Source: Verrucomicrobiota bacterium (lineage in GTDB: Bacteria > Verrucomicrobiota > Verrucomicrobiia > Chthoniobacterales > Terrimicrobiaceae). From it: DNA of 34,157 bases. The position numbers and the translations under genes were made by a program. Shown in pieces: positions 20,373 through 34,157 of this stretch (its first letter is position 1; every line of letters begins with the position of its first letter). The notes beneath the pieces were generated by a model. That model was not told the origin of the DNA. It saw only the letters and a program-made list of their open reading frames with translations, and made no database searches. The stretch spans positions 1 to 34,157 of the forward strand of contig JAPLTF010000096.1 of NCBI GenBank assembly GCA_026398275.1. Reading direction: 5' to 3'.

Positions 20373-20479
20373 CAGGCGGGCCGGAGGCGTAAACGTGGGG
20401 CCGGTTCATTGTCCGCATTCCCGCCGGATTGGTTCTTCCACCCTTGCGTAGGCGACATCCCGAACCTACACAAAGGTTC

Positions 20480-21709
20480 ATGCCCCATTCGAACATCAGC
20501 GTTTCCGCCAGCAGAGCTTTCGTGGAAGTCTTCGAACTGCCCCCGACGGGTTCGGGGCCGCTTGACGGAATGCGTTTTGCGATCAAGGACCTGATCGATG
20601 TCGCCGGATGGAAGACGGGGTCCGGCAATCCCTCTTGGTGCGACTCGCACCCTCCCGCAGTAGTCCACGCGGTTTGCGTCGAGCAGATGCTCAAGGCCGG
20701 GGCGACGGGCGTTGGCAAGACGGTGACCGATGAGTTGGCGTTCGGTTTGCTGGGACACAACGACTTCCTTGGGACGCCGCTCAATCCCCGCGCGCCCGAC
20801 CGCCTGCCGGGCGGCTCCTCCAGCGGGTCGGCTTCTGCCGTGGCGTGCGGGCTGGCGGATTTTGCCCTCGGCACCGACACGGGCGGATCCGTCCGCGTGC
20901 CCGCGAGCAACTGCGGCATCCACGGCTTCCGCCCTTCGCACGGCTTTGTCTCGGTGGCCGGCGTCAACCCGCTGGCTCCGGGCTTCGACACGGTGGGAAT
21001 CCTGGCCGCTGACGCGGACGTCCTCGCCCGGGTCGCCGTTTGTCTGCTGGCTTGCGGCCCGGCACCGCAGGCGGAACCGGCCTCCGTGCGCCTGGTGCTG
21101 GAGGCCTTCGAGCTTTGCGACCCGGAGGTGCGCGAGGCGCTCGGCGGCGCGGTGCGCCGCCTGCGGGAATGCTTCGGGTCTCGGGTCGCAGAAGTTTCGC
21201 TGCGTGACGTGGTCGGTGACGAGGCCGGCGGGGAGATGGCTGCCTGGCGCGAGACGTATTGCGTTCTCCAATGGGCTGAGATCAAGAGCTCTCTCGGCGC
21301 ATGGATCGCCGCGGCCCGGCCGGCATTCGGTGCCGCCACGGCGGCGAGTTTTGCCCTCACCGATCAGCTGGACCGGGGCCGCGTTGCCGAAGCCGTCGGG
21401 CGCCGGGAAAGTTGGTTCCGCAGGCTCAGGCGGGCTCTGGGCCCGGCCGACATGCTCTGCCTGCCAAGCGTGCCGGCCCTTCCACCGCTCCGGGATGACC
21501 CCCTGCCCGTTCGTTCGCCCGGCAGTGGAGGCGCCAGTTCCTACTATCCGCGCACCCTCGCCCTGACCAGCATAGCTGGCATCGGGCGGCTCCCGCAGGT
21601 CTCGCTGCCCATGGGTCAGGTCGGCGGCGTGCCGGTCGGCCTGTCGCTCGTCGCGGGACACGGACAGGATGCGTTTCTGCTCGAAGTCGCCCGTCGCCTG
21701 AACTCCTGA
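20480..21709 (+). CDS. Amidase signature family enzyme
   Basis: A 409-residue amidase from ATG 20480, with AAAGG 5 bases upstream. The Ser-cisSer-Lys triad is K36 in AIKDLIDV, the cis-serine in PGGSSSGSA (S113-S115) and the nucleophile S137 in GTDTGGSVRVPAS, followed by GIHGFRPSHG. All three catalytic residues are present. The protein is shorter than GatA (about 480) and lacks gatB or gatC nearby, so it is more likely a stand-alone amide hydrolase than the tRNA amidotransferase subunit. The substrate is unknown. It is the last chromosomal gene before the mobile element. Confidence 0.92.
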   Translation: MPHSNISVSASRAFVEVFELPPTGSGPLDGMRFAIKDLIDVAGWKTGSGNPSWCDSHPPAVVHAVCVEQMLKAGATGVGKTVTDELAFGLLGHNDFLGTPLNPRAPDRLPGGSSSGSASAVACGLADFALGTDTGGSVRVPASNCGIHGFRPSHGFVSVAGVNPLAPGFDTVGILAADADVLARVAVCLLACGPAPQAEPASVRLVLEAFELCDPEVREALGGAVRRLRECFGSRVAEVSLRDVVGDEAGGEMAAWRETYCVLQWAEIKSSLGAWIAAARPAFGAATAASFALTDQLDRGRVAEAVGRRESWFRRLRRALGPADMLCLPSVPALPPLRDDPLPVRSPGSGGASSYYPRTLALTSIAGIGRLPQVSLPMGQVGGVPVGLSLVAGHGQDAFLLEVARRLNS

Positions 21710-21734: not shown

Positions 21735-21751
21735 TGGCTCCTGAGGTAGGA
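21735..21751 (-). other. tRNA 3'-end remnant, candidate att core, copy 1
   Basis: TGGCTCCTGAGGTAGGA read on the minus strand gives TCCTACCTCAGGAGCCA. This fits the end of a tRNA: the 3' T-stem strand CCTAC, a 7-base acceptor strand CTCAGGA, discriminator G and CCA. No tRNA body follows, so it is a remnant such as site-specific integration at a tRNA 3' end leaves behind. A GGAGCCA/TGGCTCC inverted repeat overlaps its left end (from 21719). Confidence 0.5.
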
Positions 21752-21755
21752 TTAT

Positions 21756-21774
21756 CCCCGCGGCAAGCGCGGGG
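21756..21774. repeat. Hairpin between the tRNA-end copies
   Basis: CCCCGCG (21756-21762) and CGCGGGG (21768-21774) form a perfect 7-bp stem with a 5-base loop. No T-run follows, so it is not a typical terminator of the amidase gene. Confidence 0.5.
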
Positions 21775-21810
21775 CTCTGCGAGTCTGTGTGCTTCGCAAC
21801 TCTTGGGAAG

Positions 21811-21869
21811 GCGCTATCGCGCTGGCAGTCGAACTGCGTTCTCGTCATTCTACTGGAGCGCTATCGCGC
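21811..21869. repeat. Two copies of GCGCTATCGCGC
   Basis: The 12-mer GCGCTATCGCGC, itself a GCGC-TATC-GCGC hairpin, occurs at 21811-21822 and 21858-21869, between the two tRNA-end copies. It may be a recombinase arm site or a dispersed repeat. Confidence 0.45.
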
Positions 21870-21889
21870 ATCGCCAAATCCGCTGGATT

Positions 21890-21906
21890 TGGCTCCTGAG
21901 GTAGGA
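21890..21906 (-). other. tRNA 3'-end remnant, candidate att core, copy 2
   Basis: This is an exact second copy of the 17-mer, 155 bp further on. Here the match extends on the minus strand into CGAGT, the end of a T-loop of form TTCGAGT, strengthening the tRNA reading. The next bases (CCCG) no longer fit a tRNA. Two adjacent copies suggest successive integrations or a small nested insertion of about 155 bp. Confidence 0.5.
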
Positions 21907-22224
21907 CTCGGGCGTATATCTCGCTTATTTACAGATAAATATAACGAGTTTTACCCTGTTGGCAAGCGCTAATCACGCCTACTTTCCTACCACTCAAACG
22001 AACGCTTTCACTACAATCTGCTGGCAATTTTGCTGGCAGTTTGACCCTCATCTTTCAGTCCGGCCAATAAGCAGATCCTTGATTGCTCCACGTGTCTTTG
22101 GGAGAATCTGCCAACAGTTCTCAAATCCTCTATTCTCGCCATCGTTTCATCAAAGGGATAATTTCTCTCCGACAGGTTCAAAAACTGCATGAGATAACAT
22201 CATTTATGGACAGTAACTTTATTA
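21907..22224. other. Lower-G+C intergenic stretch at element left end
   Basis: About 320 bp without a convincing gene. Base composition drops markedly compared with the amidase gene. Open frames here start at non-ATG codons and have no recognisable product. It contains the tandem 12-mer at 22019-22042. At this position many integrative elements carry an integrase or excisionase; none is seen. Confidence 0.5.
22019..22042. repeat. Tandem 12-bp direct repeat
   Basis: TGCTGGCAATTT is followed directly by TGCTGGCAGTTT (11 of 12 identical), in the gene-poor left end of the element. It could be a protein-binding iteron or simple slippage. Confidence 0.5.
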
Positions 22225-23310
22225 TTGTTATCGTCCGTGATTCACGTTACATTCACTCCGTTGAAAGCACTTTTTGAAAAGCACTTGGTAGAATACCTTG
22301 ATCGGGTAACGGGATTGAAAATCACTTTTTCTCCGTGTTCCCTATCCAAGCTGCCTTTCTTTTTACGCGGGCGATATGATCTGACTGCTGGGGAATTTTT
22401 CGGGCAAAAGCTGCTGTTTTTTTCTCCCCGCAGTGATTTTGACGATTGGACGCCTTCGGTAATCCAGAATGATCGTCGGCAACTGGAAGAGATTTCCCAT
22501 CTTTCTCCTGTGTTTGTCAACGAACGCATTCCGTCGAATCAAAGAGAGCGTTTCATTCGACTGCGGCTCCCGTTTATCGTGCCGGGGACACAACTGTATT
22601 TGCCCGACCTCTTGATGGATTTGCGCGAACACTTTGTCGGCCAGCGAGCCAGCCCTGGCGAATTATTGAGCCCTTCGGCGCAACACCTTTTCCTGATGGC
22701 CGCTGAACAACGCGTCGGCCGTTTCGACAATGCCCAAGCGCTGGCGCAAAAGATCAACTATTCCGCCATGACGGTTGGCCGGGCAATGGGCGAATTGGAA
22801 GTGGCTGGCCTGGCGCGGATCGCCCGCAGTGGAAAGACCAAGGCTCTCATTTTCGGGACCGAAAATGAGCCCGTGCAATGGCGAACACTATGGGAACGTG
22901 CCCTACCCCTCCTGCGTTCCCCCGTGCGACGGGCGTTCCCGCTTTATGAATGTCCATCCCATCTGACCGCGCCAGCAAGATTGGGTGGAATCAGTGCTCT
23001 TGCCCGCTACTCCATGCTCAACGATCCGAAGATTGAAACATGGGTGGTCGGTTCAGAATGGTATCGTGGAAATGCCGTTGCATTTGAAGGGGCCGAGGCT
23101 CCCGGGCCAGACTGGGGCAACGAAAGCCTCGAAATCTGGAGTTATGATCCCGGCCTTTCAGGGACTTCCGAAAGCTCGTGGATACGTGGTGAGTATGCCG
23201 CTCGCGGTGGGATTGTAGACCGACTTTCGCTCTATCTCGCCCTGCGCGGATCCAATGATGAGCGGGTGGAACAGGCGTTGGAAAAAATGATCGGAGACAT
23301 CACGTGGTAA
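22225..23310 (+). CDS. Winged-helix (MarR-like) regulator paired with a nucleotidyltransferase
   Basis: Up to 361 residues from TTG 22225; a TTG at 22261 (KALFEKHLVEYLD) is an equally good start, and no ATG or strong ribosome site is near. Residues about 150-205 form a winged helix: QHLFLMAAEQRVGRFDNAQALAQKINYSAMTVGRAMGELEVAGLARIARSGKTKALIF. The N-terminal part (LPFFLRGRYDLTAGEFFGQKLLFFSP) is a domain I recall in regulators beside nucleotidyltransferases. It overlaps the next gene by 7 bases and is probably the antitoxin and repressor of an AbiE-like module, on analogy with AbiEi. A chromosomal regulator role is the alternative. Confidence 0.65.
   Translation: MLSSVIHVTFTPLKALFEKHLVEYLDRVTGLKITFSPCSLSKLPFFLRGRYDLTAGEFFGQKLLFFSPRSDFDDWTPSVIQNDRRQLEEISHLSPVFVNERIPSNQRERFIRLRLPFIVPGTQLYLPDLLMDLREHFVGQRASPGELLSPSAQHLFLMAAEQRVGRFDNAQALAQKINYSAMTVGRAMGELEVAGLARIARSGKTKALIFGTENEPVQWRTLWERALPLLRSPVRRAFPLYECPSHLTAPARLGGISALARYSMLNDPKIETWVVGSEWYRGNAVAFEGAEAPGPDWGNESLEIWSYDPGLSGTSESSWIRGEYAARGGIVDRLSLYLALRGSNDERVEQALEKMIGDITW
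22236..22246. promoter_or_regulatory. Palindrome CGTGATTCACG at the regulator start, candidate operator
   Basis: This perfect 5-bp-arm palindrome with a one-base centre lies at the 5' end of the winged-helix gene. It would suit autoregulation by the encoded DNA-binding protein. It falls inside the coding region if translation starts at TTG 22225, and just upstream if TTG 22261 is used. Confidence 0.3.
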
Positions 23311-24062
23311 AGGGCCTCGAAATCTTTCGCGATTACTTCGTCGAATACGCGGAGAATTACGTTCTGATCGGCGGAACGGCTTGCGACTTGGCATTTTCCT
23401 TGGCCAGCCAGGAATTTCGCGTCACCAAGGATCTTGATATTGTTCTCGTCATCGAAGCCATGAACGAAAGGTTTGCCAGAACGTTTTGGTCCTTCGTCAA
23501 AGATGGCGGCTACAAACACCGGAGGCGCGGTGAGGATGGAGAAATGCAGTTCTATCGGTTTTCGGAGCCCGACAACTCCACCTTTCCGATTCAGTTGGAA
23601 CTCTTTTCCAAAAAACCTGACCTGTTAACGCCTTTGGCTGACGGTCCGCTGACGCCGATTCCGATTGGCGGGGAAGGTTCGAGTTTGTCCGCGATTTTAC
23701 TGGGTGAAGACTACTACGGACTGATCCGACAGGAGCGCGCCATCCGCGAGGGCGTCAGTTTCCTCAAACCAGAAGCCCTGATCCCTTTGAAGGCAGCGGC
23801 CTGGCTTGATTTAACAAGGCGGAAAAGCGCTGGCGAAATCGTTGACTCCAAAGACATCCAGAAACACAGGAGGGACGTTTTTCGACTCTTCACCTTGCTG
23901 ACGGCAGACACCCGTATCGTGCTATCTCCGACGATTCAAAACGACCTTCGGGGGTTCGTGGAAGCGATGCGCACGACCCCACCTGACTTGCTGGCACTGA
24001 ACATACGGGGCATTTCGGCTGAAGAAATGTTGGCGGCGCTCGCTCAAATCTACAGCCTTTGA
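23304..24062 (+). CDS. AbiEii-like nucleotidyltransferase, candidate toxin
   Basis: A 252-residue protein from GTG 23304, overlapping the regulator's stop. It has the nucleotidyltransferase signature GG at 23-24 (VLIGGTACDLAF) and DLD at 43-45 (TKDLDIVLVI), with a possible third carboxylate in IQLELFSK. LKPEALIPLKAAAWLDLTRRKS and the later DIQKHRRDVFRL resemble the AbiEii core K...K-H-x-D segment. The family transfers nucleotides to RNA or protein acceptors. The pairing with a winged-helix protein supports a type IV-like toxin-antitoxin module, distinct from the AbiE pair at 32-34 kb. The substrate is unknown. Confidence 0.72.
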   Translation: MVKGLEIFRDYFVEYAENYVLIGGTACDLAFSLASQEFRVTKDLDIVLVIEAMNERFARTFWSFVKDGGYKHRRRGEDGEMQFYRFSEPDNSTFPIQLELFSKKPDLLTPLADGPLTPIPIGGEGSSLSAILLGEDYYGLIRQERAIREGVSFLKPEALIPLKAAAWLDLTRRKSAGEIVDSKDIQKHRRDVFRLFTLLTADTRIVLSPTIQNDLRGFVEAMRTTPPDLLALNIRGISAEEMLAALAQIYSL

Positions 24063-24167
24063 ATCTCGATTTGAACGCGCGATGCCAGAATCGTCGCCCT
24101 GGATTCAGCAGGGCCACAGTCTGGCTAAAGGATGCGCGGTTGCGGGCATTCCGACTTTCATAAATCA

Positions 24168-24183
24168 GCTCCCAACTGGGAGC
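24168..24183. promoter_or_regulatory. Inverted repeat upstream of the element operon, candidate operator
   Basis: GCTCCCA and TGGGAGC flank a 2-base centre (AC), giving a perfect 7-bp palindrome in the 155-bp gap before the small gene at 24218. The AT-rich TTCATAAAT directly upstream (about 24158-24165) may be part of a promoter. The short spacer suits a dimeric helix-turn-helix protein. Confidence 0.4.
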
Positions 24184-24200
24184 AGGCAGTGCGTTTTTAT

Positions 24201-24215
24201 CCGCCAGAGTGGCGG
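24201..24215. promoter_or_regulatory. Inverted repeat over the ribosome binding region of the operon's first gene
   Basis: CCGCCA and TGGCGG with a GAG centre end 2 bases before ATG 24218 and include the G-rich stretch that would serve as ribosome binding site. It could be an operator or an RNA hairpin that hides the site. Confidence 0.4.
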
Positions 24216-24217
24216 GG

Positions 24218-24532
24218 ATGAAAGCACACATACATCCCGAAAACGACATCCGCCACTCCGACCGCCGTCACCCGGTGGACTTCCTTGAACCCCTCCCGAC
24301 ACCCGATGATCAGCTTCACCGCATTTGTGAAGTCCTGAGCCGGACTTTCGGCTGGGTGGCTGCGGCGGACACCGTTGAACAAAAAGGACTCCGGGCTTCC
24401 GTGGTTCTCTACTGCGTCAGGGCCGACTTGCTTGGCACGGACACCCTGGAGGAACTCGGGGCAACGGCTGGAATGCCACAAGCTGTGGTTGACGAGCTTG
24501 TGTCCGATTTCTGCCACACCATCGGCTGGTGA
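24218..24532 (+). CDS. Hypothetical protein, first gene of the element operon
   Basis: A 104-residue protein from ATG 24218 (GGCGGGG lies directly upstream). No known domain is recognised. The N-terminus is rich in His, Asp and Arg; the remainder is helical and acidic (QLHRICEVLSRTFGWVAAADTVEQKG and LGTDTLEELGATAGMPQAVVDELVSDF). The last part, with a short helix-turn-helix-like spacing (LEELGATAGMPQAVVDEL), could bind DNA, but this is weak. The stop overlaps the Toprim gene's ATG (TGATG), so they are co-translated. Confidence 0.6.
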   Translation: MKAHIHPENDIRHSDRRHPVDFLEPLPTPDDQLHRICEVLSRTFGWVAAADTVEQKGLRASVVLYCVRADLLGTDTLEELGATAGMPQAVVDELVSDFCHTIGW

Positions 24533-25512
24533 TGAACGCGGAGGATTTCAAACTGGCCGGTGCCAGTGGGCCGGATCGCGTGTCCGACCGGGTTCGGTCG
24601 ATTCCCTTGCGCGACTTGCTCGCCTGGCACGGGTTCACACTGAAACGCGAGGGCGTCAGTTTCCGGGCGAAGGATGATCGATACAACATCGTCATCCACG
24701 GCGACAAATGGTTCGACAACCGGGCGGGGGTTGGGGGCGCTGGGGCGATTGACCTTCAGATGCACCTGTGCGGCGGGGATTTCCGGACGACATGCCGGGT
24801 TCTGGCCGAACAATTCCGGCCGGCGGTCGGTGGCTTAGCATTCCCGGAAAGTCGCATCCGCGAATCATTCTCCACACGCCGGTCATTCGAGGAACTGGCC
24901 TCGCAATACGCCGTGCCAAGCGAATCCAACTGGCCGATTGCTCACGAGTATCTCGTGAAAACCCGCGGGCTTGATCCGGATTTGATCGATCCCTTGCACG
25001 ACCGAGGATTGATCTACGCCAATAGCCACCGTCCGAATCCGAGCCTGGTTTTTCTCCACCGGACGACCGAGGGCAAGATCGAGGGGGCAACGCTCCGGGA
25101 CACCCGGCACGAATCGACCTTCCGCCCATGTCTGGGAAACAAGATGAGTGCTTGGTTTTCTGTGGGGGATCCGACGAACGCAGAACAAATCGTGGCGGTC
25201 GAAGCTCCGATTGATGCCCTGAGTTACTACCAGCTCAATCCATCCAATCAGCTCGCCGTCGTGAGTTGCGGCGGGAGCCATGTCCCGGACGAACTTCTCC
25301 ACCTGTCCTACATGCGCCGCCAGTCATTTGTCGTGGCACTCGATAACGATTGCGCCGGAGAACGCGGTTGGCTGAAGGCATGGGATGATACCGCCGATTG
25401 GGCGGGATTCAAAATCTCCTCCGATTGTCCCCGACTCAAGGACTGGAATGCGGATCTCATGTCCATGCGGTCCGCCGGTCAGAACCACCACATGGCTCTC
25501 ACCCATGCCTGA
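24532..25512 (+). CDS. DUF3991/Toprim-domain protein
   Basis: A 326-residue protein. Residues about 20-95 (IPLRDLLAWHGFTLKREGVSFRAKDDRYNIVIHGDKWFDNRAGVGGAGAIDLQ) match the DUF3991-type primase-associated fold, which looks like a CHC2 domain without its zinc-binding cysteines. A Toprim domain follows, with the conserved Glu in VAVEAPIDALSYY and the DxD-like pair in FVVALDNDCAGERGW. Such proteins are frequent on plasmids and ICEs and are thought to act in primer synthesis or strand processing during transfer. No helicase domain is attached. It overlaps the next gene by 8 bases (ATGCCTGA). Confidence 0.8.
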   Translation: MNAEDFKLAGASGPDRVSDRVRSIPLRDLLAWHGFTLKREGVSFRAKDDRYNIVIHGDKWFDNRAGVGGAGAIDLQMHLCGGDFRTTCRVLAEQFRPAVGGLAFPESRIRESFSTRRSFEELASQYAVPSESNWPIAHEYLVKTRGLDPDLIDPLHDRGLIYANSHRPNPSLVFLHRTTEGKIEGATLRDTRHESTFRPCLGNKMSAWFSVGDPTNAEQIVAVEAPIDALSYYQLNPSNQLAVVSCGGSHVPDELLHLSYMRRQSFVVALDNDCAGERGWLKAWDDTADWAGFKISSDCPRLKDWNADLMSMRSAGQNHHMALTHA

Positions 25513-25768
25513 AAAACTCCCCAACTTCATCTTCGAGGCAATCTATCGTTCGAGGTCCGGTCTAAAGGATGCCTCGGCAACAGCCGCCCGGTTCAATTGC
25601 TACACGCCCGCCTCGCGGGAAATTCCGCGAGACGCCTTCGTTGCCGACTGCTGGGTTTGCGACGCCCACGGGCGAACTGATCCGGGTCTCAACGTTTCAC
25701 CAATTCCGGTCCGAAAGGAAGACCTCGGGAAAATCCTCAACACCATCACTCACGGCCAGCGGTTGTAA
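25505..25768 (+). CDS. Hypothetical small protein
   Basis: An 87-residue protein from ATG 25505, overlapping the Toprim gene's stop. It begins MPEKLPNFIFEAIYRSRSGLKDASATAARFN. Two cysteines lie close together (DCWVCDAHGRTDPG), which could bind metal with histidine, though no known finger matches. It is not a recognised family. Operon position and the overlap support it being real. Confidence 0.6.
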   Translation: MPEKLPNFIFEAIYRSRSGLKDASATAARFNCYTPASREIPRDAFVADCWVCDAHGRTDPGLNVSPIPVRKEDLGKILNTITHGQRL

Positions 25769-25788
25769 CTCCGAACCCCATTCTCACC

Positions 25789-26001
25789 ATGCCACATCTG
25801 ATTGCAGACACCCACACGTCCATCCTTGAAACGTATTTTTTCAGCCATATCGACCGGGGAATCGGAGCGGACGAGACCCCCCTTTTCACATTGATCGAGG
25901 AAGGGCAGCACCTTTCCACGGTCGTCGCCGCGAAATTTCAACTCTCCGAAACGGAGGCTCAATCCGCGATCGAGGCGGCCCGGCAGGAGGTCTGGCTATG
26001 A
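25789..26001 (+). CDS. Hypothetical small protein
   Basis: A 70-residue acidic protein (MPHLIADTHTSILETYFFSH). The C-terminal half (VVAAKFQLSETEAQSAIEAARQEVWL) is an amphipathic helix pair that could be a helix-turn-helix or a dimerisation element. It has no known family. Its stop overlaps the ArdC gene's ATG (ATGA at 25998-26001), implying coupled translation. Confidence 0.6.
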   Translation: MPHLIADTHTSILETYFFSHIDRGIGADETPLFTLIEEGQHLSTVVAAKFQLSETEAQSAIEAARQEVWL

Positions 26002-27026
26002 ACCGGGATATTTATCAGACCATCACGGATCGCTTTGTCGAGCAGTTGAAAAAGGGCACGGTGCCCTGGCAAAAGCCGTGGTTCGGCGTCCAAAACATGG
26101 TTTCCCGGAAACAGTATCGGGGCATCAATGCGCTCCTCCTCGGTTCCACCGAATTCCAATCTCCATTCTGGGTGAGCTTCAAACAGGCGCTCGACTTGGG
26201 CGGACACATCAAAAAGGGCCAGAAATCCACGCCCGTCATTTATTACAAGCTCTTTGATAAGCACGACGAAGCGGGCAATGCGATCATCCGGGTGGACGGA
26301 CGGGCGGCCAGAGTTCCTTTCATCCGCTGGGCGAACGTTTTCAATTTGGACCAGACCGAAGGCATCACGCCTCCGGCGATTACCACCGGCCAAAGCACCG
26401 GGCAGCCGCTGGAAAAAGCCGCTGAGATTGTGGCAAACGCGAAACTCTGTCCGATCCATCACACCGGGTTCGCTGCACTCTATTCCCCCCAAGATGACGT
26501 TATCCGGATGCCGTCTCCCACGTCATTTCGCAGTCCGGAAGACTACCACCTGACGCTTTTTCACGAAATGACCCATGCCACGGGCCATTCGTCCCGGCTC
26601 GACCGCGAGGGGATCACCCAGCCAGCAAAGTTCGGATCTGAGCGATATTCCAAGGAAGAATTGATCGCGGAACTCGGGGCCGCGTTCCTTTCCAACGAGG
26701 CCGGAATTTTCACCAATCTCCAGTTTGAAAATTCTTCCGCCTATCTGGGTTCGTGGATTCAAAAATTCCAGAACGATCCACGGATGATCGTATCCGCTGC
26801 CTCCCAGGCGCAGCGCAGCGCAGATTTCGTGCTCGGGATTGAGCACAAGGAAACACTGAACGAGGTTCAGATGGATTCTGAGCCCATCTCGGTTCTTTCG
26901 ATGTCCAAGCCGGATCTCGCCATTTCTGGCATATCCCGCCTGGGCCAGTCAGCCGCCCGGAACATCATTCCCACCAGAGTTCGAGAGGGCACCGATGGCA
27001 TTCGTCAAATGGGATTGGGGCTATGA
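25998..27026 (+). CDS. ArdC-like antirestriction / ssDNA-binding metallopeptidase-fold protein
   Basis: A 342-residue protein. The N-terminal domain (NRDIYQTITDRFVEQLKKGTVPWQKPW, then YRGINALLLG) is the ArdC-type single-stranded DNA-binding domain (DUF1738). The C-terminal domain has the zincin motif HEMTH (H189, E190, H193) in LTLFHEMTHATGHSSRLDR, then YSKEELIAELGAAFLSNEAGI, typical of MPTase-PolyVal-type peptidases. ArdC proteins protect incoming single strands from host restriction; the peptidase substrate is unknown. Its position between the Toprim and mobilization genes agrees with entry-stage expression. The stop overlaps an ATG of a doubtful ORF. Confidence 0.9.
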   Translation: MNRDIYQTITDRFVEQLKKGTVPWQKPWFGVQNMVSRKQYRGINALLLGSTEFQSPFWVSFKQALDLGGHIKKGQKSTPVIYYKLFDKHDEAGNAIIRVDGRAARVPFIRWANVFNLDQTEGITPPAITTGQSTGQPLEKAAEIVANAKLCPIHHTGFAALYSPQDDVIRMPSPTSFRSPEDYHLTLFHEMTHATGHSSRLDREGITQPAKFGSERYSKEELIAELGAAFLSNEAGIFTNLQFENSSAYLGSWIQKFQNDPRMIVSAASQAQRSADFVLGIEHKETLNEVQMDSEPISVLSMSKPDLAISGISRLGQSAARNIIPTRVREGTDGIRQMGLGL

Positions 27027-28153
27027 AGAGCCATCGACACCCATCGCATACGCGTTCTCCTGCCGCTCATTGTTCCCATCCGGCGACGGCACCGGGGGCG
27101 GCGCAGGCTTGCCCCTTGTGCCTGCCGTCTGGTTCCAATCAGCGCACCAGTGGCGGCGATCCACTCCCTGGCCGCCCAGTTGAGAAGTCCTTCCGCTTCG
27201 CGTTCAGGACTTCTCAACTCGGCAGCTTCATACCAGGAACAGCGGGTTCCCTGCCATGCCTGAGCCATATTGTTCATATCCCGGTCCACGCAGTAAGCGA
27301 GAGACGCACTTGCGAAACCGGCCTGCCCATTTGCCACTTCGCGGCCGGCGTCAGCGGGTTCCCCGCACCCGCCCTCCGCTTCGGGCAAATCGGCGCACCT
27401 GTGATGACGACCGGCTTTCGGGTCGTTCATCTGAATGGGCCTGACGCTTCGCTGCCCATTCAGATCAACGCCTGGACCTCCCGACCGGCGGATTGGTCGC
27501 GACTTCTTGATTTTTTCCCGCTCATGAGCATCCCCTGTTCCGGGAGGCAGGGGCTGCGACCTCTCGCCCCGCCTCTCCTCACTGGGGCCGCTCATCAGCT
27601 CACCTGTCCCACATACACCGGTTTATGCCGCCCAATTGAGAGAGCCGTCCGCTCCGCTTCCGTGCCTTCTCAATTCGGCTGCTTCACCCTTATGCATCTG
27701 TCATTCCCTCCGGCACCCGTGCGAAAAGTCGCCCCAGTCGCGCTGATTTGCGGCCACTGCTCAGGACGGCGGGCGCTGCGATTCCTTGGCCCTTCCGCCT
27801 TCGCAGACGCCGCAAGCCAGCGCAGCATCCCCAAACTTTCGGGCTCCATCCGCCCATTCTCTCCGTCCTCGCTTTCCCCCAAGCCCCAGCTCCGGACGCA
27901 AAGAAAGGGCGTGGGCATCCCCTTCGACCTCTCAATCGGAGTCTTCGGAAACCCGCTCCAAGACTCCTCCATTCACCGGCCCCGACCAGTCGATCCTTGC
28001 ACCTTTGCGGTCGTTTTACCCGGACCGAACGACCGACAGGATAGCACTTTTCCCCGGAAAAGTGCGGGCGGGCCGCTGACGCTCATTTTCCCGCCGCTCC
28101 TCCGCGTGTCAGGCACGCTTCGGAGGCATCAACATTTTTTTCAAAACCGCTGA
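27023..28153 (+). CDS. Doubtful 376-codon ORF over a hairpin-packed region
   Basis: This frame is open for 376 codons and its ATG overlaps the ArdC stop (ATGA), the same junction used upstream in the operon. The predicted protein is odd: very rich in Pro, Ser, Arg and Leu, few acidic residues, no recognisable fold. The plus strand here is pyrimidine-rich, which lowers stop frequency and can produce long false frames. At least ten hairpins lie inside it. The paralogous hairpins at 27178 and 27634 are in the same frame and encode related peptides (RPVEK, then SQLGSF; RPIER, then SQFGCF), so a real protein is not excluded. Opposite-strand frames of 196 and 100 codons also exist. I favour a non-coding structured region. 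Confidence 0.25.
   Translation: MKSHRHPSHTRSPAAHCSHPATAPGAAQACPLCLPSGSNQRTSGGDPLPGRPVEKSFRFAFRTSQLGSFIPGTAGSLPCLSHIVHIPVHAVSERRTCETGLPICHFAAGVSGFPAPALRFGQIGAPVMTTGFRVVHLNGPDASLPIQINAWTSRPADWSRLLDFFPLMSIPCSGRQGLRPLAPPLLTGAAHQLTCPTYTGLCRPIERAVRSASVPSQFGCFTLMHLSFPPAPVRKVAPVALICGHCSGRRALRFLGPSAFADAASQRSIPKLSGSIRPFSPSSLSPKPQLRTQRKGVGIPFDLSIGVFGNPLQDSSIHRPRPVDPCTFAVVLPGPNDRQDSTFPRKSAGGPLTLIFPPLLRVSGTLRRHQHFFQNR
27178..27219. repeat. Hairpin 1, perfect 14-bp stem
   Basis: AGTTGAGAAGTCCT (27178-27191) pairs perfectly with AGGACTTCTCAACT (27206-27219) around a 14-base loop TCCGCTTCGCGTTC. The flanks CCGCCC on the left and CGGCAGCTTCA on the right recur at hairpin 4. Confidence 0.9.
27425..27469. repeat. 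Hairpin 2, 15 pairs with one mismatch
   Basis: ATCTGAATGGGC (27429-27440) pairs perfectly with GCCCATTCAGAT (27454-27465). After one C/C mismatch, GTT (27425-27427) pairs with AAC (27467-27469). The loop is CTGACGCTTCGCT. Confidence 0.9.
27544..27575. repeat. Hairpin 3, 10 pairs with one bulge
   Basis: GAGGC-A-GGGGC (27544-27554) pairs with GCCCCGCCTC (27566-27575), leaving one bulged A and an 11-base loop. Confidence 0.75.
27634..27675. repeat. Hairpin 4, paralogue of hairpin 1
   Basis: AATTGAGA (27634-27641) pairs with TCTCAATT (27668-27675); after a G-T wobble and one mismatch, GC pairs with GC. Flanks and overall span (42 bases) match hairpin 1. The second stem pair is A-T here and G-C in hairpin 1. 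Confidence 0.8.
27773..27810. repeat. Hairpin 5, 9 pairs with one bulge
   Basis: GCGCTGCGA (27773-27781) pairs with TCGCAG-A-CGC (27801-27810), one bulged A, loop of 19 bases. Confidence 0.65.
27938..27967. repeat. Hairpin 6, perfect 8-bp stem
   Basis: GGAGTCTT (27938-27945) pairs with AAGACTCC (27960-27967) around a 14-base loop. Confidence 0.75.
28008..28035. repeat. Hairpin 7, perfect 8-bp stem
   Basis: CGGTCGTT (28008-28015) pairs with AACGACCG (28028-28035) around a 12-base loop. Confidence 0.75.
28044..28126. repeat. Cluster of three consecutive hairpins before mobC; candidate oriT region
   Basis: Three stems follow each other. GCACTTTTCC/GGAAAAGTGC (28044-28065) has a 2-base centre. 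GGCGGG/CCCGCC (28067-28095) has a 17-base loop containing CTGACGCTC. CCTCCG/CGGAGG (28099-28126) encloses an inner GCGTG/CACGC. An AT-rich stretch (28127-28174) then leads to the MobC-like gene. This arrangement is typical of relaxase origins, but no nic site can be named. Confidence 0.5.
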
Positions 28154-28174
28154 ACAACAACCGAACAAATCCCT

Positions 28175-28405
28175 ATGAAACGCCAACCAACATCCGCAAC
28201 GGCCCGCATCGACTTGGAGATCACTCCCGAAACGCGAGCCCGCTTCAATGCTATTCACAAAAATCTCGGTTTCAAAACAAAACCCGAAACGTTCGAGGCT
28301 CTCGTTTTTTCCATCACCACAAAGGACATCCTTCGCCCTGATGTCGTCGCGCGAATCGAACGCAAAATCGATGAGGCGATCAAGATCCTCGACACCGTGT
28401 TGTGA
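28175..28405 (+). CDS. MobC-like relaxosome accessory protein
   Basis: A 76-residue protein (MKRQPTSATARIDLEITPETRARFNAIHKNLGFKTKPETFEALVFSI). The pattern of a short strand (ARIDLEI), a helix (TPETRARFNAIHKNLG) and a second helix (KPETFEALVFSI) resembles a ribbon-helix-helix DNA-binding protein. Such proteins sit next to relaxase genes and bind oriT to help the relaxase nick. Its stop overlaps the relaxase GTG by two bases, implying coupling. The family call is from position and fold pattern, not from a specific motif. Confidence 0.6.
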   Translation: MKRQPTSATARIDLEITPETRARFNAIHKNLGFKTKPETFEALVFSITTKDILRPDVVARIERKIDEAIKILDTVL

Positions 28406-29523
28406 AAAACGGCCAAATCTTCGCTCACAAGTCCACCGCTCGCGGGCGACTGGATTTGGAATACCTCGACGAACTTTCCAATCGCAAAGCGTCCTTGCGC
28501 AAACGCTCCGAGATTGAGCAACAGATCGGCAAAAAACTGAGAGGTTTCACGGATTACGCATCACGCGGTTCGCTGGGGCAAGTTCACGCGGGCGGATTTC
28601 TTCACAACGACATCCGTCGCAATGCTGACGGCACAAGTATCGCACCCGCTAACCTGTCCAACGATGAACGAAAGCGCCGAATCACCGAAGCATGGCAACA
28701 CCATTTGACGAAATATCCATCGCAGGCCAAAAGCCCGGTCATTGCTCATCGGCTCACGTTCTCCATGTCAACCGAGCAACACAACGCGCTCGTAGCTGCG
28801 GGACTCAATCCAGATCAAGTTCTCCACTCGACCATCAAGAACGTCATGCGGAAATTCGGCGAGGCGTTCCATCCCGGCGACTCCATCGGTTACGCCTACG
28901 GGTTGCATCACGACACTGCACATCTCCATGCCCACATCGCGCTCTGTCCACGAACAGCATCGGGTGCCTACGTCGGATGCAGCACGTCGCGCAATCCACA
29001 CTCGAAACATAAACGGCAGATGGATTCGATTCGCGGTTGGTTTGAAAACGAAAACAACCGCTGGACTCAAATACTCGGCTCGCCTGAGCAACTCACGGAA
29101 ACAATTTCCAAGCGCCTCGACTCTGACCGCATGACATTTGTTCCCCGGCTCACACCGAACCAAATCGCAGCATTGCAGAGCACACAAACCGCCGAGGCGA
29201 TCCGGTTGCAACAGTCGTATCAAAGCATCCGCAATCTCGAAGCGGCCATCGTTGCGAAGCGGCAATTTCTCAATGCAGAACGGAACTCGATCTTTGTTTC
29301 GCGGTTGCTGGGCATGCGGAAGCCGAAACTCCCACGCACGGTGGAGAAACTCGCCAAAGCGGTTGACCGCCGCTCGCTCCGGGAAATGCAGAATCTGCTC
29401 TTCAAAATCAAACGCGAATACCGCTCCGCTCACAAACGCTACTCACAAACCCACGGATTTACTTCTTATGCCAATCGAAGCACCCAGTCACACGCCCATC
29501 GGGATCAAGGCCACAAACTCTGA
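28402..29523 (+). CDS. Relaxase / mobilization nuclease
   Basis: A 373-residue relaxase from GTG 28402. The metal-binding three-histidine motif is HHDTAHLHAHIAL (residues 169-181, with H174, H176 and H178), the MobA/VirD2-type motif III. Upstream HRLTFSMSTEQHNALVAAGL and downstream RQMDSIRGWFENENNRW agree with a compact relaxase domain. The usual N-terminal catalytic tyrosine is not obvious: the first part has Y20 and Y53 as candidates. The C-terminal third is basic and coiled (LEAAIVAKRQFLNAERN). It should nick oriT and lead the strand through the coupling protein. No primase or helicase domain is fused. It overlaps the next small gene by 56 bases. Confidence 0.82.
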   Translation: MKNGQIFAHKSTARGRLDLEYLDELSNRKASLRKRSEIEQQIGKKLRGFTDYASRGSLGQVHAGGFLHNDIRRNADGTSIAPANLSNDERKRRITEAWQHHLTKYPSQAKSPVIAHRLTFSMSTEQHNALVAAGLNPDQVLHSTIKNVMRKFGEAFHPGDSIGYAYGLHHDTAHLHAHIALCPRTASGAYVGCSTSRNPHSKHKRQMDSIRGWFENENNRWTQILGSPEQLTETISKRLDSDRMTFVPRLTPNQIAALQSTQTAEAIRLQQSYQSIRNLEAAIVAKRQFLNAERNSIFVSRLLGMRKPKLPRTVEKLAKAVDRRSLREMQNLLFKIKREYRSAHKRYSQTHGFTSYANRSTQSHAHRDQGHKL

Positions 29524-29719
29524 GTTCGTTGTCTGCCAGAATTTTGTTTTTCGGCCCGCCAACGTGGACGCCTTTTCGCATCAACCATATGACGACGGTT
29601 CCGCCATCACGACGGTCAACTTCAAATCCTACACCCAGAGCATTCCCGATGCGGATCGCCGATTGTTTGACTTCCTGACTTCAAAGCTCAACCCGAAGCC
29701 GACCGATGAAAATCATTGA
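29468..29719 (+). CDS. Hypothetical small protein between relaxase and coupling protein
   Basis: An 83-residue protein from ATG 29468 (MPIEAPSHTPIGIKATNSEF). It overlaps the relaxase end by 56 bases and the coupling-protein start by 14. The sequence is mixed, with aromatic strands (VVCQNFVFRPANVDAF) and a C-terminal DADRRLFDFLTSKL helix. It is not recognised. The double overlap and lack of another gene in 29524-29705 support it being translated; it may be an adaptor between relaxase and coupling ATPase, which is inference. Confidence 0.6.
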   Translation: MPIEAPSHTPIGIKATNSEFVVCQNFVFRPANVDAFSHQPYDDGSAITTVNFKSYTQSIPDADRRLFDFLTSKLNPKPTDENH

Positions 29720-31238
29720 TGGCCTCATTTTCAGTTTCTGTGTCGTGGGCGCGTTGGTCGGATACTTTCTGCTCGCTCCGCCGCTCTCGTTCGCGGTCAT
29801 TGGACTTTGCGCGGTGTTCGCCGCCTGGAGTTTGATGGCCCCGGACAATTCCGGGCAAATCGTTCTTCGACTCGGCGGGCTGGCTTGGACCATGGAGGAT
29901 TTTGTTCGCGGATGGCTCATCACCGGGCGGACGGGATCGGGAAAGACCCAGTGCGCGATCAACGCAATTACGTTCCAGATTTTCCAGAACGTCAAAAACT
30001 GGGGAGGTATCTGTCTGGATCAAAAAGGCCTCTATTGGGAGATCCTGACCAAGATGGCGTCGTATTCTGGGCGCGGCCACGATCTCGTTTTGCTTCAAAC
30101 CCGGCCCCCAGGTGAAGATGCTCTTTGGCGTCCGCCTCACACGATCAACATCACCGGCAACCCGAATGTCCCGGCATCGACGTATGCGAAAGTTATCGTG
30201 GATACGGCGGTTTCGTTAACAGGCGGACGTGGTGGCAATCCGTTTTTTCCGACGAAAGCGCAGCTCGCCATCCAGACGGGGTTTGAAATTCTCCGGCATA
30301 TCGAGGCATTCGTCACGATTCCGAATATTCACCGACTGTTGCTTAATGCCGAAGACGCCAATGCGACGATTGAACTCCTGATGAACAAGGGTGACCAGCG
30401 GTCTCACGAACTTGTCGGCGCGTTCCGCAGCTACCTCGACCAGCCGGTGGAACAACTGGGCGGAGTTCAAGGCACGCTCAGCACGTATCTGGAATTCTTC
30501 CTGAATCCAGAAATCTCCGAGGTCTTTTGCGCGAATGAACCGACATTTTCGATTTCGGAGATCGACGCCGGAAAAATCGTGTGCCTTGCCATGCCCCAGA
30601 AATTCCAGAGCGAGCGCCTCTATATCAATACGATCCTGAAGCTCTCGTATTATTTCCATGCGTTGAGCCGGTTCGACAAATCCGCCGAAGATCGCGGCAA
30701 AGACAACCTCATCATCCTCTTTGCGGACGAAGGACAGGAAATCATCACTGGTGCGGAGTCCGCGTTTGCAGACCACCGGGCAGTTGGTGTCATCCGGGAG
30801 GCACGGGCCACCATCGTTCTCGCCACCCAAGCCTACACCTCCCTTCATGGTGCTCTCGATAAACGCTACGCCGATGTTCTCATGCTCAATTTGAGCAACG
30901 AATTGATTTTTACCGTGGCGAATCACGATTCGGCGATGCTCGCCTCGAAAAATATCGGCGAACGGGAAGTGACGGAGAAATCGTGGGGAGTCTCGGGTAG
31001 CCGGAATTCCTACAACTACCAACGGAAGATCAAACCCTTCCTTGAGGCGTATCAGTTGAGGAAGCTCCCCAAGTTCACCGCCGTCATCCGCCATTGCGAG
31101 AAACCGTTCCGCAAACGACTTGTGCCGCCAATCAACCCCGATGGCAGCTATCCGAAATGGTTCACGAATTTCCGCCCCGACTACGCGATCCGCCAGTGGC
31201 TCCGAGGTAAGAAAAACCATCCCACTCCCAATCCATGA
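29706..31238 (+). CDS. VirD4/TraG-type coupling ATPase
   Basis: A 510-residue type IV coupling protein. Two N-terminal membrane segments (about residues 5-45: LIFSFCVVGALVGYFLLAPP and SFAVIGLCAVFAAWSLM) anchor it in the inner membrane. Walker A is GRTGSGKT (74-81), Walker B is in NLIILFADEGQEIITG (the TraM-recognition/TraG-D C-terminal region), and VLATQAYTSLHGALDKRYADVLMLNLSNELIFT is the conserved motif following it. It pumps the relaxase-DNA complex to a mating pore. No pore genes are nearby, so the element may borrow one. The stop overlaps the next ATG (ATGA). Confidence 0.92.
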   Translation: MKIIDGLIFSFCVVGALVGYFLLAPPLSFAVIGLCAVFAAWSLMAPDNSGQIVLRLGGLAWTMEDFVRGWLITGRTGSGKTQCAINAITFQIFQNVKNWGGICLDQKGLYWEILTKMASYSGRGHDLVLLQTRPPGEDALWRPPHTINITGNPNVPASTYAKVIVDTAVSLTGGRGGNPFFPTKAQLAIQTGFEILRHIEAFVTIPNIHRLLLNAEDANATIELLMNKGDQRSHELVGAFRSYLDQPVEQLGGVQGTLSTYLEFFLNPEISEVFCANEPTFSISEIDAGKIVCLAMPQKFQSERLYINTILKLSYYFHALSRFDKSAEDRGKDNLIILFADEGQEIITGAESAFADHRAVGVIREARATIVLATQAYTSLHGALDKRYADVLMLNLSNELIFTVANHDSAMLASKNIGEREVTEKSWGVSGSRNSYNYQRKIKPFLEAYQLRKLPKFTAVIRHCEKPFRKRLVPPINPDGSYPKWFTNFRPDYAIRQWLRGKKNHPTPNP

Positions 31239-32131
31239 ATCCCCAAATCGAAAAACTTACCGGCCTTGAACCCCATCTGCTTTCCAAAATCAAAGGCCAG
31301 GATCATGCCATTTCCCGTGTCTGTTCAGTGCTGGAGCGCGGCCAACTCGGATTGCAACCTGCGGGCAGGCCGCTCGGTTCGTTCCTTTTTCTCGGGCCAA
31401 CCGGGGTGGGGAAGACCGAATTGACACTGGAATTCTCCCGCTACCTTTTTGGGGAGGATTCCGTGTTTCGGTTCGACATGTCCGAATTCCTCCACTTGGA
31501 CAACGTGAAGCTATTTATGGGTGACGAGACCGGCAGCTCCGGTCGCTTGGGAAAAGTTCTTTCCGAACACCGGCACGGCGTTCTCCTGTTCGACGAAATC
31601 GAAAAGGCCCACCGCCTCATCTGGGATTTATTCTTGCAAATGCTCGATGCCGCCCGGATCACGCTGGCCGATCATCGATCCTACGACCTTTCCGGATTCT
31701 ACATCGTATGCACCAGCAACATCGGCTCGCAGCAACTCCTCCGTCCGACGAGACTCCCATTCTCGACGTTGGAACGAGCCGTCCTTTCGGAACTCCATCG
31801 GGTGTTCCGTCCAGAACTCATCGGACGCTTCGACGAAAAGATCGTATTCAAACCATTGTGTCCCGATACCCAGCGACAGATTGGCCGACTGGCCATTGAC
31901 GAGGAACTCGCCCGATTACGCCAGAAGGGATTCGATCTGACTGTTTCCGAAGAAGCATTCGAGTTTCTCCTCCGGCGAGGCATCCACAAAACGCTTGGTG
32001 CCCGTCCCATGAAAAAAACCGTGCAGAAACTCCTGGGAGACGCGATTCGGCACGTCCTCAAATCAGGTCAGGAACCTACCGGCACGCTGACTGATTCTCC
32101 TCTTTCTGATGCCTTGACTATTGAGCCGTGA
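31235..32131 (+). CDS. Single-module Clp-type AAA+ ATPase coupled to transfer genes
   Basis: A 298-residue protein equivalent to only the second AAA+ module of ClpA/ClpB. Walker A is GPTGVGKT (54-61), Walker B is VLLFDEIEKAH (D120/E121), sensor 1 is in CTSNIGS, the arginine finger region is FRPELIGRFDEKIVF, and the small domain ends with GARPMKKTVQKLL. There is no N domain and no first AAA module. It overlaps the coupling-protein gene by four bases, so it belongs to the transfer operon. Single-module Clp proteins are known (ClpX, HslU), but this one is closest to the ClpA/ClpB D2 type. It may unfold or remodel a relaxosome component; this is inference. Confidence 0.88.
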   Translation: MNPQIEKLTGLEPHLLSKIKGQDHAISRVCSVLERGQLGLQPAGRPLGSFLFLGPTGVGKTELTLEFSRYLFGEDSVFRFDMSEFLHLDNVKLFMGDETGSSGRLGKVLSEHRHGVLLFDEIEKAHRLIWDLFLQMLDAARITLADHRSYDLSGFYIVCTSNIGSQQLLRPTRLPFSTLERAVLSELHRVFRPELIGRFDEKIVFKPLCPDTQRQIGRLAIDEELARLRQKGFDLTVSEEAFEFLLRRGIHKTLGARPMKKTVQKLLGDAIRHVLKSGQEPTGTLTDSPLSDALTIEP

Positions 32132-32165
32132 CCATTTGAATCTTGCAATCCCAGCATAAAGTGTG

Positions 32166-32220
32166 ATTGTTTTATATCGCAATAAGTCCCATGAAGGTGC
32201 AAAACGATATAGAAAACAAT
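32166..32220. promoter_or_regulatory. Inverted repeat spanning the abiEi start, candidate autoregulatory operator
   Basis: ATTGTTTTATATCG (32166-32179) and CGATATAGAAAACAAT (32205-32220) are inverted copies; the second has two extra bases (CT on the complementary strand) between the blocks ATTGTTTT and ATATCG. They flank ATG 32191. AbiEi proteins are known to bind inverted repeats upstream of their own operon, which fits. Confidence 0.6.
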
Positions 32221-33051
32221 CTCAGGACTCTTGGCCATAATGAGTCTAAGGTGGTCCTGTCGTTTCGGGAGCAGGGCCGGGACGTGGTGACGAGTTCGGA
32301 CGTGATTTCTCTTCTGCAAAGCAGGGACACCGCCAGAAAAGTCATCCACAACTTGCTTCGCAAGGGGTGGTTTGCACGGCTCAAAGCCGGGCGTTACCTA
32401 CTCCTACCCCCTGAATACGGTCCCGAGAATTTCGGTGAAAACAATCCGCTCGCCCTCGCATCCGCCATCGTGGATCCCTCCTATGTGGGCTGGTGGTCTG
32501 CAGCTTCCTTTCACGGATTCACCACTCAGAAACCGATGACCCTCACGGTTGCCACGCTCCGCCAAATGCCGAACCGAACGGTTGAAGGCAGTGCGGTTCA
32601 TTTTGTGAAGGTTGTCCCACGCAAGTTTTTCGGATTCAAAACGTATGACACCTACGGGCGAAAAGCCACGATTTCGACCCCGAGCAAGACTCTTCTTGAT
32701 TGCGTTGACAGACCTGAACTCGCCGGCGGGCCGGCAGAAGTTGCGCGCATTACTCACGGAGCTTCCAGCGTGGTATCCCCGGAGGAATTGGCCGACACCG
32801 CATTCCAGATGAAATCGACCGCAGCCTTACAGCGGCTCGGTTTTCTTGCCGATCTCGTCGGCTGGAAATGGCAACCCGGCATTCGCCAGCGGGTGCGTGA
32901 TGCCATTCCGCCATCCACCCGCTCTACCTTTGGCCGCTCCACTCGGAAGCCAGACGATATCGGCTACGTAAACGCTTGGGGTGTGATTGTTCACGCCAGC
33001 GAATCGGACTTGCTCGTCGACGTGCCGGTAACACAGAAAGACTCCGCCTGA
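32191..33051 (+). CDS. abiEi: AbiEi-type antitoxin / transcriptional repressor
   Basis: A 286-residue protein from ATG 32191. The N-terminal winged helix (VVTSSDVISLLQSRDTARKVIHNLLRKGWFARLKAGRYLLLPPEYG, about residues 30-75) is the AbiEi antitoxin domain. LALASAIVDPSYVGWWSAASFHGF and TPSKTLLDCVDRPELAGG are typical of the second domain, also seen in DUF6088/AbiEi proteins. It binds DNA at the operon promoter and counteracts AbiEii without direct contact in studied systems. The stop overlaps the abiEii ATG (TGATG). The open frame runs back to 32167, but only ATG 32191 fits. Confidence 0.88.
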   Translation: MKVQNDIENNLRTLGHNESKVVLSFREQGRDVVTSSDVISLLQSRDTARKVIHNLLRKGWFARLKAGRYLLLPPEYGPENFGENNPLALASAIVDPSYVGWWSAASFHGFTTQKPMTLTVATLRQMPNRTVEGSAVHFVKVVPRKFFGFKTYDTYGRKATISTPSKTLLDCVDRPELAGGPAEVARITHGASSVVSPEELADTAFQMKSTAALQRLGFLADLVGWKWQPGIRQRVRDAIPPSTRSTFGRSTRKPDDIGYVNAWGVIVHASESDLLVDVPVTQKDSA

Positions 33052-33950
33052 TGTTGATCACATCGCAATTGCGCCAAAGCGCAGCCCTCTCCGGTGTGCG
33101 TGACATTGGCAGCATCGAGATCGATGTGATACTCACCCATCTCCTGCAGCTTTTCCATGACCGCGGATTGACCGAACACCTTGCGTTCAAGGGAGGAACA
33201 TTCCTTCGTAAAATGGTTTTTGGCCCGCGCGGGCGGCTTTCCACCGATTTGGACTTTACCCGTCGCTCAAAGATCAGCCTCGACGACCTGACTCTGCGAT
33301 TACTGGAAACGCTGGATCTGCCCTATCAAGGAATCAGCTTTCGTTTCGACAGGGATAAGGACTGGTATCTGACCGATGAGGGATGCGCTGCAAATCCCGT
33401 TTGCGCACATGAAGGCAACATCACCGGGGTTAAAATCAAAATTCAAGTCAGCATGAGAGAAAGCCCCATCTTGCCTGTTCGAGAAATGCCCCAAATCGAG
33501 CAGAGCTATTTCCGATTCTTGGGATTCACCCCGGTTTCCATTCCGTCTCTCGCCCTCGAAGAGGTCATTGCCGAAAAAATCCGTGCGGCCAGTCAGCGCT
33601 CGAAAATCCGCGATCTTTACGACTTGGCTGAAATCTCCCAGCGTCCTCTCAATCAGGGAGTCATCCGTTCCCTGGCGGTCTTGAAGCTTTGGCAAGGTGG
33701 CGGGGCCGGATTGGATTTCGACCGCTTTCGCCAGCGTGTCCAGGCGGGTGACGAATATGACGTGAAGGACTTGCAGAACCTGCTTCGCAAGGATCAAAAG
33801 CCCGACCTCGCCAAAATGATCGGGACGGTTTGTTCCGCATTTCGATTTCTGGGACAGCTCACAGATATTGAGAGAATCCTGACCGGAGACTCGACAATGC
33901 GCCTCAAAAAAGATGCAGATTTTCTTCGCGAGAGCATCGTAAAGAGTTAA
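33051..33950 (+). CDS. abiEii: AbiEii-type nucleotidyltransferase toxin
   Basis: A 299-residue protein. Motif I is FKGGTFLRK (G48/G49), motif II is RLSTDLDFT (62-70, with D66 and D68), and motif III/IV is in LALEEVIAEKIRAASQRSKIRDLYDLAEI, with the conserved Lys and Arg-Asp-Tyr-Asp. All residues expected for an active DNA polymerase beta-like transferase are present. AbiEii toxins inactivate tRNA by adding nucleotides to the acceptor end in some members, causing reversible growth arrest and phage defence. The gene overlaps abiEi by one base, the classical arrangement. Confidence 0.92.
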   Translation: MLITSQLRQSAALSGVRDIGSIEIDVILTHLLQLFHDRGLTEHLAFKGGTFLRKMVFGPRGRLSTDLDFTRRSKISLDDLTLRLLETLDLPYQGISFRFDRDKDWYLTDEGCAANPVCAHEGNITGVKIKIQVSMRESPILPVREMPQIEQSYFRFLGFTPVSIPSLALEEVIAEKIRAASQRSKIRDLYDLAEISQRPLNQGVIRSLAVLKLWQGGGAGLDFDRFRQRVQAGDEYDVKDLQNLLRKDQKPDLAKMIGTVCSAFRFLGQLTDIERILTGDSTMRLKKDADFLRESIVKS

Positions 33951-34100
33951 ACGACTCAACATCAGTCCATTGGACATTGTTTTCGTGCGCTCATTCTCGA
34001 TGCTGAAAGAAGCGACGGGGTGCATGACGGCAGAATTATAAAGAGCAGATACGAGAGGGATTTTTCTTGTAAATGTCTAGCGGCGAGACAGATTTTGCTT
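33951..34100. other. Gene-free stretch after abiEii
   Basis: This 150 bp contains no supported gene. A weak GTCCA/TGGAC hairpin (33966-33976) is followed by ATTGTTTT, which might terminate abiE transcription. Confidence 0.4.
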
Positions 34101-34157
34101 GTGAACGAAAAAATCGCACAGCAACGCCGGGATCTCCTCCGGGAGATGTCACTCATC
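34101..34157 (+). CDS. Start of a possible further gene (cut by window end)
   Basis: A frame from GTG 34101 (NEKIAQQRRDLLREMSLI) stays open to the window end. The Arg/Leu-rich helix recalls the opening of DUF6788-type small proteins found near transposases, but 19 residues are too few to be sure. TTG 34095 is an alternative start. The opposite frame is also open, so the strand is not certain. Confidence 0.25.
   Translation, partial: MNEKIAQQRRDLLREMSLI

Follow-up and report, generated by a model that had tools for sequence, protein, structure and literature searches.

Gene content on both sides of the element edge

The window, i.e. the whole stretch of 34,157 nucleotides that was analysed (contig C89 of its genome), carries chromosomal genes in its left part, encoding DNA polymerase III alpha, a RecN/SMC-type protein, two T2SSE ATPases and, as the last product before the edge, an amidase (20429-21709, + strand). 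The amidase gene is followed by two exact copies of a 17-mer, TGGCTCCTGAGGTAGGA, at positions 21735-21751 (the outer copy) and 21890-21906 (the inner copy) of the + strand, with a start-to-start distance of 155 bp. The original prediction had placed these copies correctly and had regarded them as marking the edge of a mobile element with transfer genes on its side; such an edge is indeed present, with the inner copy as the boundary.

To the right of the inner copy lies the left part of an ICE (21907-34157), which is ended by the end of the contig. An AbiEii-like protein (below cut-off) is the first product in order, followed by a Toprim_2/DUF3991 protein (24529-25512), an ArdC-type anti-restriction protein (25998-27026), a probable MobA/VirD2-like relaxase (28402-29523; E 1.9e-4, 22.2 bits, below the Pfam cut-off of 24.6), a type IV coupling protein of the TrwB/TraG/VirD4 type (29706-31238), an AAA_2 ATPase with a ClpB_D2-small domain (31235-32131) and an AbiEi/AbiEii toxin-antitoxin pair (32167-33950, with genes at 32167-33051 and 32976-33950). 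From the Toprim_2 protein onward all of these are encoded on the + strand. The other end of the element is found on contig C88 (16810-24712), where a tyrosine integrase (Phage_integrase, PF00589; C88:16996-18069, E 5.9e-12) adjoins attL, beside a tRNA-Asn gene ending at position 16809, and where a TrbI-like protein is encoded farther along, beyond the integrase gene. The coupling protein and TrbI matches are clear, whereas that of the relaxase stays below cut-off. The GC content is 60.6% to the left of the two copies and 55.2% to their right; the corresponding values for C88 are 58.9% on the tRNA side and 56.0% on the element side.

ICEKp1 is an ICE tied to tRNA-Asn. The present element resembles tRNA-integrating ICEs of the ICEKp1 type in having an integrase gene beside the tRNA gene, a block of 3'-end identity serving as attL and attR, a relaxase-like protein, a coupling protein and TrbI. 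It differs from them in that no VirB4 or other mating-channel ATPase was found among the scanned ORFs (12 on the element side of the window and 4 on C88); as both contigs end inside the element, it may be represented only in part.

Identity of the 17-mer

When read on the - strand, TGGCTCCTGAGGTAGGA is composed of a T, 5 nt of a T-stem, 7 nt of an acceptor stem, the discriminator G and CCA, which agrees with the tRNA 3'-end geometry proposed for it at the outset. In 100 shuffles of the window a mean of 0.01 matches was obtained, even at up to 3 mismatches. A search of the whole genome (117 contigs, 4.66 Mb; up to 1 mismatch) located the 17-mer in three places, two in the window and one on C88, where an intact tRNA-Asn(GTT) gene recognized by ARAGORN (C88:16735-16809, + strand) has it as its 3' end. 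Since there are only three places, one of them inside an intact tRNA-Asn gene, the 17-mer is not a dispersed repeat, the identity that would have spoken against the original prediction, and the tRNA whose existence was foreseen is present. ARAGORN detected no tRNA gene in the whole window, so that a tRNA body is lacking locally, as had been noted, and the functional gene resides where it was expected, at the other end of the element.

The two copies are not equivalent. In the inner copy the identity with tRNA-Asn extends to 21 bp (CGAGTCCTACCTCAGGAGCCA), while in the outer copy the first base upstream of the 17-mer already differs (AATCC versus AGTCC in tRNA-Asn). Outside the 17-mer the copies diverge from each other.

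The boundary of the ICE

A genome of another genus (G007) contains tRNA-Asn, the integrase gene and the 17-mer on one contig, the two ends of the element being 7.9 kb apart. Its integrase is nearly identical to that of C88 (356 of 357 amino acids, 1056 of 1071 nucleotides). The aligned identity amounts to 94.2% with C88 16735-21709, from the tRNA gene onward, and to 95.7% with window positions 21890-24465; the presence of DNA that is 94-96% identical in another genus suggests that the element was transferred recently. With the whole window as the query, the match to G007 begins exactly at the inner copy (21890), and the sequence outside it is unmatched.

We also rebuilt the empty site by joining the tRNA gene of C88 to the window sequence from position 21889 outward. 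In this joined sequence 124 of 137 columns match the uninterrupted tRNA-Asn site of G001, a genome of the same genus, and the match runs from the tRNA through the hairpin that follows into the core of the repeat unit described below, within which it ends. As a second 17-mer, or tail copy, was also not found in the G001 unit (up to 1 mismatch), that unit is itself shortened or altered at the core. The synteny of amidase and tRNA-Asn genes in relatives was uninformative, as these genes lie on different contigs in G001.

The starting point of the G007 match, the 21-bp identity and the rebuilt G001-like site together show that the inner copy (21890-21910, - strand) is the attR of the ICE and that the sequence outside it is native chromosome. 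Its counterpart, an attL with a restored tRNA-Asn gene, is located at C88:16735-16809 (+ strand). The element is thus bounded by direct att repeats sharing 21 bp, and in G007 a single contig contains both of its ends. C88 and C89 are not joined in the assembly, and their link is provided by G007 and the rebuilt site.

A structured repeat between the two copies

The 155-bp stretch between the start points of the two copies (21735-21889, - strand) has an organization of its own. It comprises, in this order, a leader hairpin, a T-stem-like strand, a conserved core (GACGAGAACGCAGTTCGA, 21829-21846, - strand), internal hairpins, a terminal hairpin and a tRNA tail, the tail being the outer copy (21735-21751, - strand). 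This stretch is matched at 21853-21743 (- strand; 55.9 bits, E 4.5e-15, genome-wide E 1.9e-13) by R1, a covariance model derived from 8 units in six genomes other than that of the window; R1 E-values are rough by the tool's own account.

Units of this kind are known from Escherichia coli as tRNA-linked repeats (TLRs), e.g. the 178-bp repeats of tyrT, rttR/RtT RNA (RF00391) and rrA, rrB and rrF. According to the published description (PMC8144298), E. coli TLRs have a tail of 18-19 bp identical to the upstream tRNA or rRNA, comprise 22 genes at ten loci, occur as tandem copies at some loci, show a spacing of 150 bp in the case of rrB, and were without known function as of 2021. Like these repeats, the units described here follow a tRNA gene directly, are encoded on its strand and end with a copy of the tRNA 3' end. 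By eye, the common layout is a T-stem strand followed by ATGAGAA, a hairpin and GTTCGA, and further on by AATCC and the tail. For the window unit the position directly behind tRNA-Asn appears after joining across the ICE, in a sequence that matches G001. Its tail is identical in 17 of 17 positions, and in 18 of 19 when two more bases are included, which misses the E. coli rule by a single base.

The Rfam model of RtT (RF00391) did not match the window unit (E up to 10), nor any unit in seven of eight sources, the window's included; the best matches in the eight sources came from G015, where two units reached 37.9 and 37.7 bits against a cut-off of 45. Conversely, R1 weakly matches four units of the E. 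coli tyrT region (scores of 22.5, 21.9, 21.6 and 15.7 bits, with approximate E-values between 1.3e-4 and 0.017). In the sources given to Rfam nothing besides tRNA exceeded the cut-off, and a match to sX4 (43.2 bits, cut-off 70) overlaps a tRNA-Ser gene. We therefore file the window unit as a TLR by its position and its tail, and consider it related to RtT only through its family and not by its own score. It further differs from the E. coli TLRs in being split from its tRNA by the ICE, and its relatives differ in belonging to Verrucomicrobiota, in standing behind several tRNA types and in having short and long forms. A coding ORF starting at the ATG of the core was rejected by eye, since changed hairpin loops in the Ser-GCT and His units break the frame.

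Conserved structure

Of 31 family units, 27 (87%) show pairing at T-stem position 4 and 25 (81%) at position 5 between the tail and the strand preceding the core, compared with 28% and 54%, respectively, in 754 control cross-pairings with different tails; positions 1-3 are nearly invariant and hence carry little information. The closing stem of the window unit is poorly paired (3 of 8 inspected positions in strict register). A four-helix structure was paired in 94.1% of cells over 8 units of six other genomes, and 7 of its 19 pairs had changed on both sides, figures which are favoured by the fact that the structure was hand-written from the same alignment rows, leaving out the badly aligned Ala110 unit and a Ser subtype. 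This number of both-side changes was equalled by 5 of 500 shuffles and the covariation score by none of 500.

Distribution of TLR units

Among the 45 tRNA matches listed for the own genome, 38 distinct genes were scanned, and four of them (Ser-GCT, His, Ser-TGA and Tyr) have a copy of their own tail, with up to 2 mismatches, within 400 bp downstream. No own-tail copy was found upstream or on the reverse strand of any of the 38 genes (6.7 kb scanned upstream versus 15.0 kb downstream). Together with the Asn unit of the window and a Pro unit, the genome contains six TLR-like loci. By eye, the TLR at tRNA-His (locus L186, contig C60) has an insertion of about 100 nt in the hairpin loop between the two core halves.

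A survey with R1 covered 9 chosen genomes with 150 candidates scored per genome, and its counts are thus lower bounds. It yielded at least 57 matches, 5 of which are the model's own units. The surroundings of 30 matches (including these 5) were fetched. In 24 cases a same-strand tRNA gene precedes the match by no more than about 300 bp, and among the 25 new matches this holds for 19; the other six of the 30 comprise three near contig ends, the two displaced units of the window and of contig C51, and a weak one without a tRNA. At least 5 matches come from the own genome, those behind the Tyr, His and Ser-GCT tRNA genes among them. Overall, in this genome and its relatives, R1-family units adjoin Tyr, Ser, His, Ala, Glu and Pro tRNAs.

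The core was traced more widely. The form GATGAGAACGCAGTTCGA is common to the window and to G048 (1 and 0 mismatches, respectively). Among 213 genomes of the order, 31 contain the core at up to 1 mismatch, and none contains the reversed pattern. Of 30 inspected core loci, that of the window included, 22 have a same-strand tRNA (Ser, Ala, Glu or His) 11-69 bp before the core, and in 15 of these the 3' end of that tRNA recurs behind the core with up to 2 mismatches; four of the remaining eight start at a contig end. A longer core pattern was found in 9 of 387 genomes drawn from the phylum, all of the same class; 10 of 12 places were inspected, and loci L213 and L216, the sole places of their genomes, are without a tRNA. 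The open-access titles and abstract beginnings among the matches listed contained no TLRs of Verrucomicrobiota. The kind of repeat described from E. coli is present in a distant phylum.

Extra copies of the tRNA-Asn 3' end stand behind tRNA-Asn in several members of the order (four in G073, others in G048, G041, G027, G106 and further genomes), and they are of more than one kind. R1 matches the Asn units of G041 and G027 weakly (14.9 and 13.2 bits). In the Asn arrays of G073, G106, G105, G096, G046 and G009 neither the core nor an R1 match (E up to 1) was found, and therefore not every tail copy belongs to the R1 family.

Small GIY-YIG proteins are encoded close behind tRNA-Asn or the last tail copy at loci L091 (G105), L064 (G009), L096 (G097) and L090 (G106), and a partial match (L074:1853-2104, - strand) lies just outside the attR of the ICE in G007. 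The PF01541 domain was matched in G105, G009, G097 and G007, and the G106 protein was recognized by eye. In G105 and G009 a degenerate tRNA-Asn copy follows the GIY-YIG gene. It is possible that this arrangement of GIY-YIG and tRNA-Asn represents a homing-like cassette; in the open-access literature nothing was found on GIY-YIG together with Verrucomicrobia and tRNA genes.

One integration or two

The original prediction attributed the two copies to repeated integration at the same tRNA. In terms of the present data, the outer copy would be the attR of an older tRNA-Asn element, reduced to 138 bp, and the inner copy that of the younger ICE. In favour of this view, the 17-mers agree in sequence and orientation and are situated where an integrated element ends. 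Moreover, tRNA-Asn seems to have been targeted repeatedly in this order, since G007 and G012 contain this element or a related one and G043 and G058 have 17-mer copies far from the tRNA. However, the interval separating the two copies belongs to a structured repeat family (E 4.5e-15) whose members stand beside tRNAs of six other types, and R1 finds no unit beside the far 17-mers of G012, G043, G058, G006 and G007 (E up to 1 or 5); the sole matches there score low and lie kilobases from the 17-mers (14.8 bits in L102; 14.0 and 8.7 bits in L074). We therefore regard an older integration as improbable. The claim of repeated integration is the part of the original prediction that did not hold, as only the inner copy bounds the element and the outer one is the tail of a repeat also found behind other tRNAs. 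The copies in G043 (L102, contig C11) and G058 (L092/L093, contig C11), which lie about 11 kb and 87 kb from the intact tRNA-Asn gene, suggest further islands at this tRNA.

Even less credit can be given to the view that the outer copy was left by a decayed tandem tRNA-Asn gene, as the 3' end of the resulting pseudogene. Degenerate tandem copies of tRNA-Asn are visible in the relatives G046, G009, G106 and G105; the window unit, against this, shows no visible D-arm or anticodon arm and matches the TLR model across its full length. In the degenerate copies themselves (L044, L064, L090 and L091, respectively), short palindromes replace part of the anticodon arm, as judged by eye.

We are thus confident that a single ICE integration beside a native tRNA-linked repeat explains the double 17-mer, the outer copy being the tail of a TLR of about 155 bp and not the scar of a second integration. 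According to the proposed course of events, an ICE with a tyrosine integrase would have recombined into the 3' end of tRNA-Asn(GTT), the trailer of which consisted of one TLR (21735-21889), now outside attR. The ICE would have come between tRNA-Asn and TLR, so that the tail of the latter now mimics a second att site. In units of this family the T-stem-like 5' strand closes the structure by pairing with the tail, which is a copy of the tRNA 3' end and may have arisen by local duplication or by conversion from the tRNA. The TLR is expected to be co-transcribed with the tRNA and processed, and the ICE may still be mobile.

A second displaced TLR

The Pro unit of the same genome has had a comparable fate. 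It was detected with R1 at C51:1781-1882 (- strand), has a tail 3 mismatches from tRNA-Pro ends, and is directly preceded by 48 bp that repeat the 3' part of tRNA-Pro(GGG) except at one position (the longest exact match covers 26 bp, the rest having been read by eye). The complete tRNA-Pro(GGG) gene is located at C51:17419-17492 (- strand). The interval of about 15.5 kb (inspected as L260, C51:1001-19000) encodes a Phage_integrase protein beside the far copy and an MmeI-type restriction-modification protein. A second integrated element therefore separates tRNA-Pro from its TLR, and two elements at different tRNAs of one genome have each come between tRNA and TLR.

Inheritance and movement of TLRs

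A tree of unit bodies was calculated by a quick method. Of the 30 R1 loci with fetched surroundings it includes 21, after omission of 4 for which no tRNA is known and of 5 with short bodies, and support was low, stars being assigned to 3 of 18 inner branches. The tree as a whole requires 6 changes of tRNA type, which is as few as 7 types permit, and 10 changes of genome; most units therefore look inherited together with their tRNA. The unit bodies of G132 (Ser-CGA twice, Ser-TGA and Ala) form one starred clade and have different tails, which suggests movement or conversion between tRNA loci in that genome. As a tentative and rather doubtful generalization, TLRs, rather than being confined to enterobacteria, might be widespread small mobile or converting RNA-like units that pass from tRNA to tRNA, perhaps via the universal T-loop, and copy the local 3' end each time.

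Significance

Two copies of a tRNA 3' end at the edge of an island need not mean two integrations, because the tail of a TLR resembles an att site. In such a case, an island boundary defined by searching for att repeats could be off by 155 bp. Two elements in one genome lie between a tRNA and its TLR, which makes it possible to study directly how the tRNA-TLR link is lost. Moreover, the finding extends TLRs to Verrucomicrobiota, and their conserved fold provides comparative material for seeking the function of these repeats.
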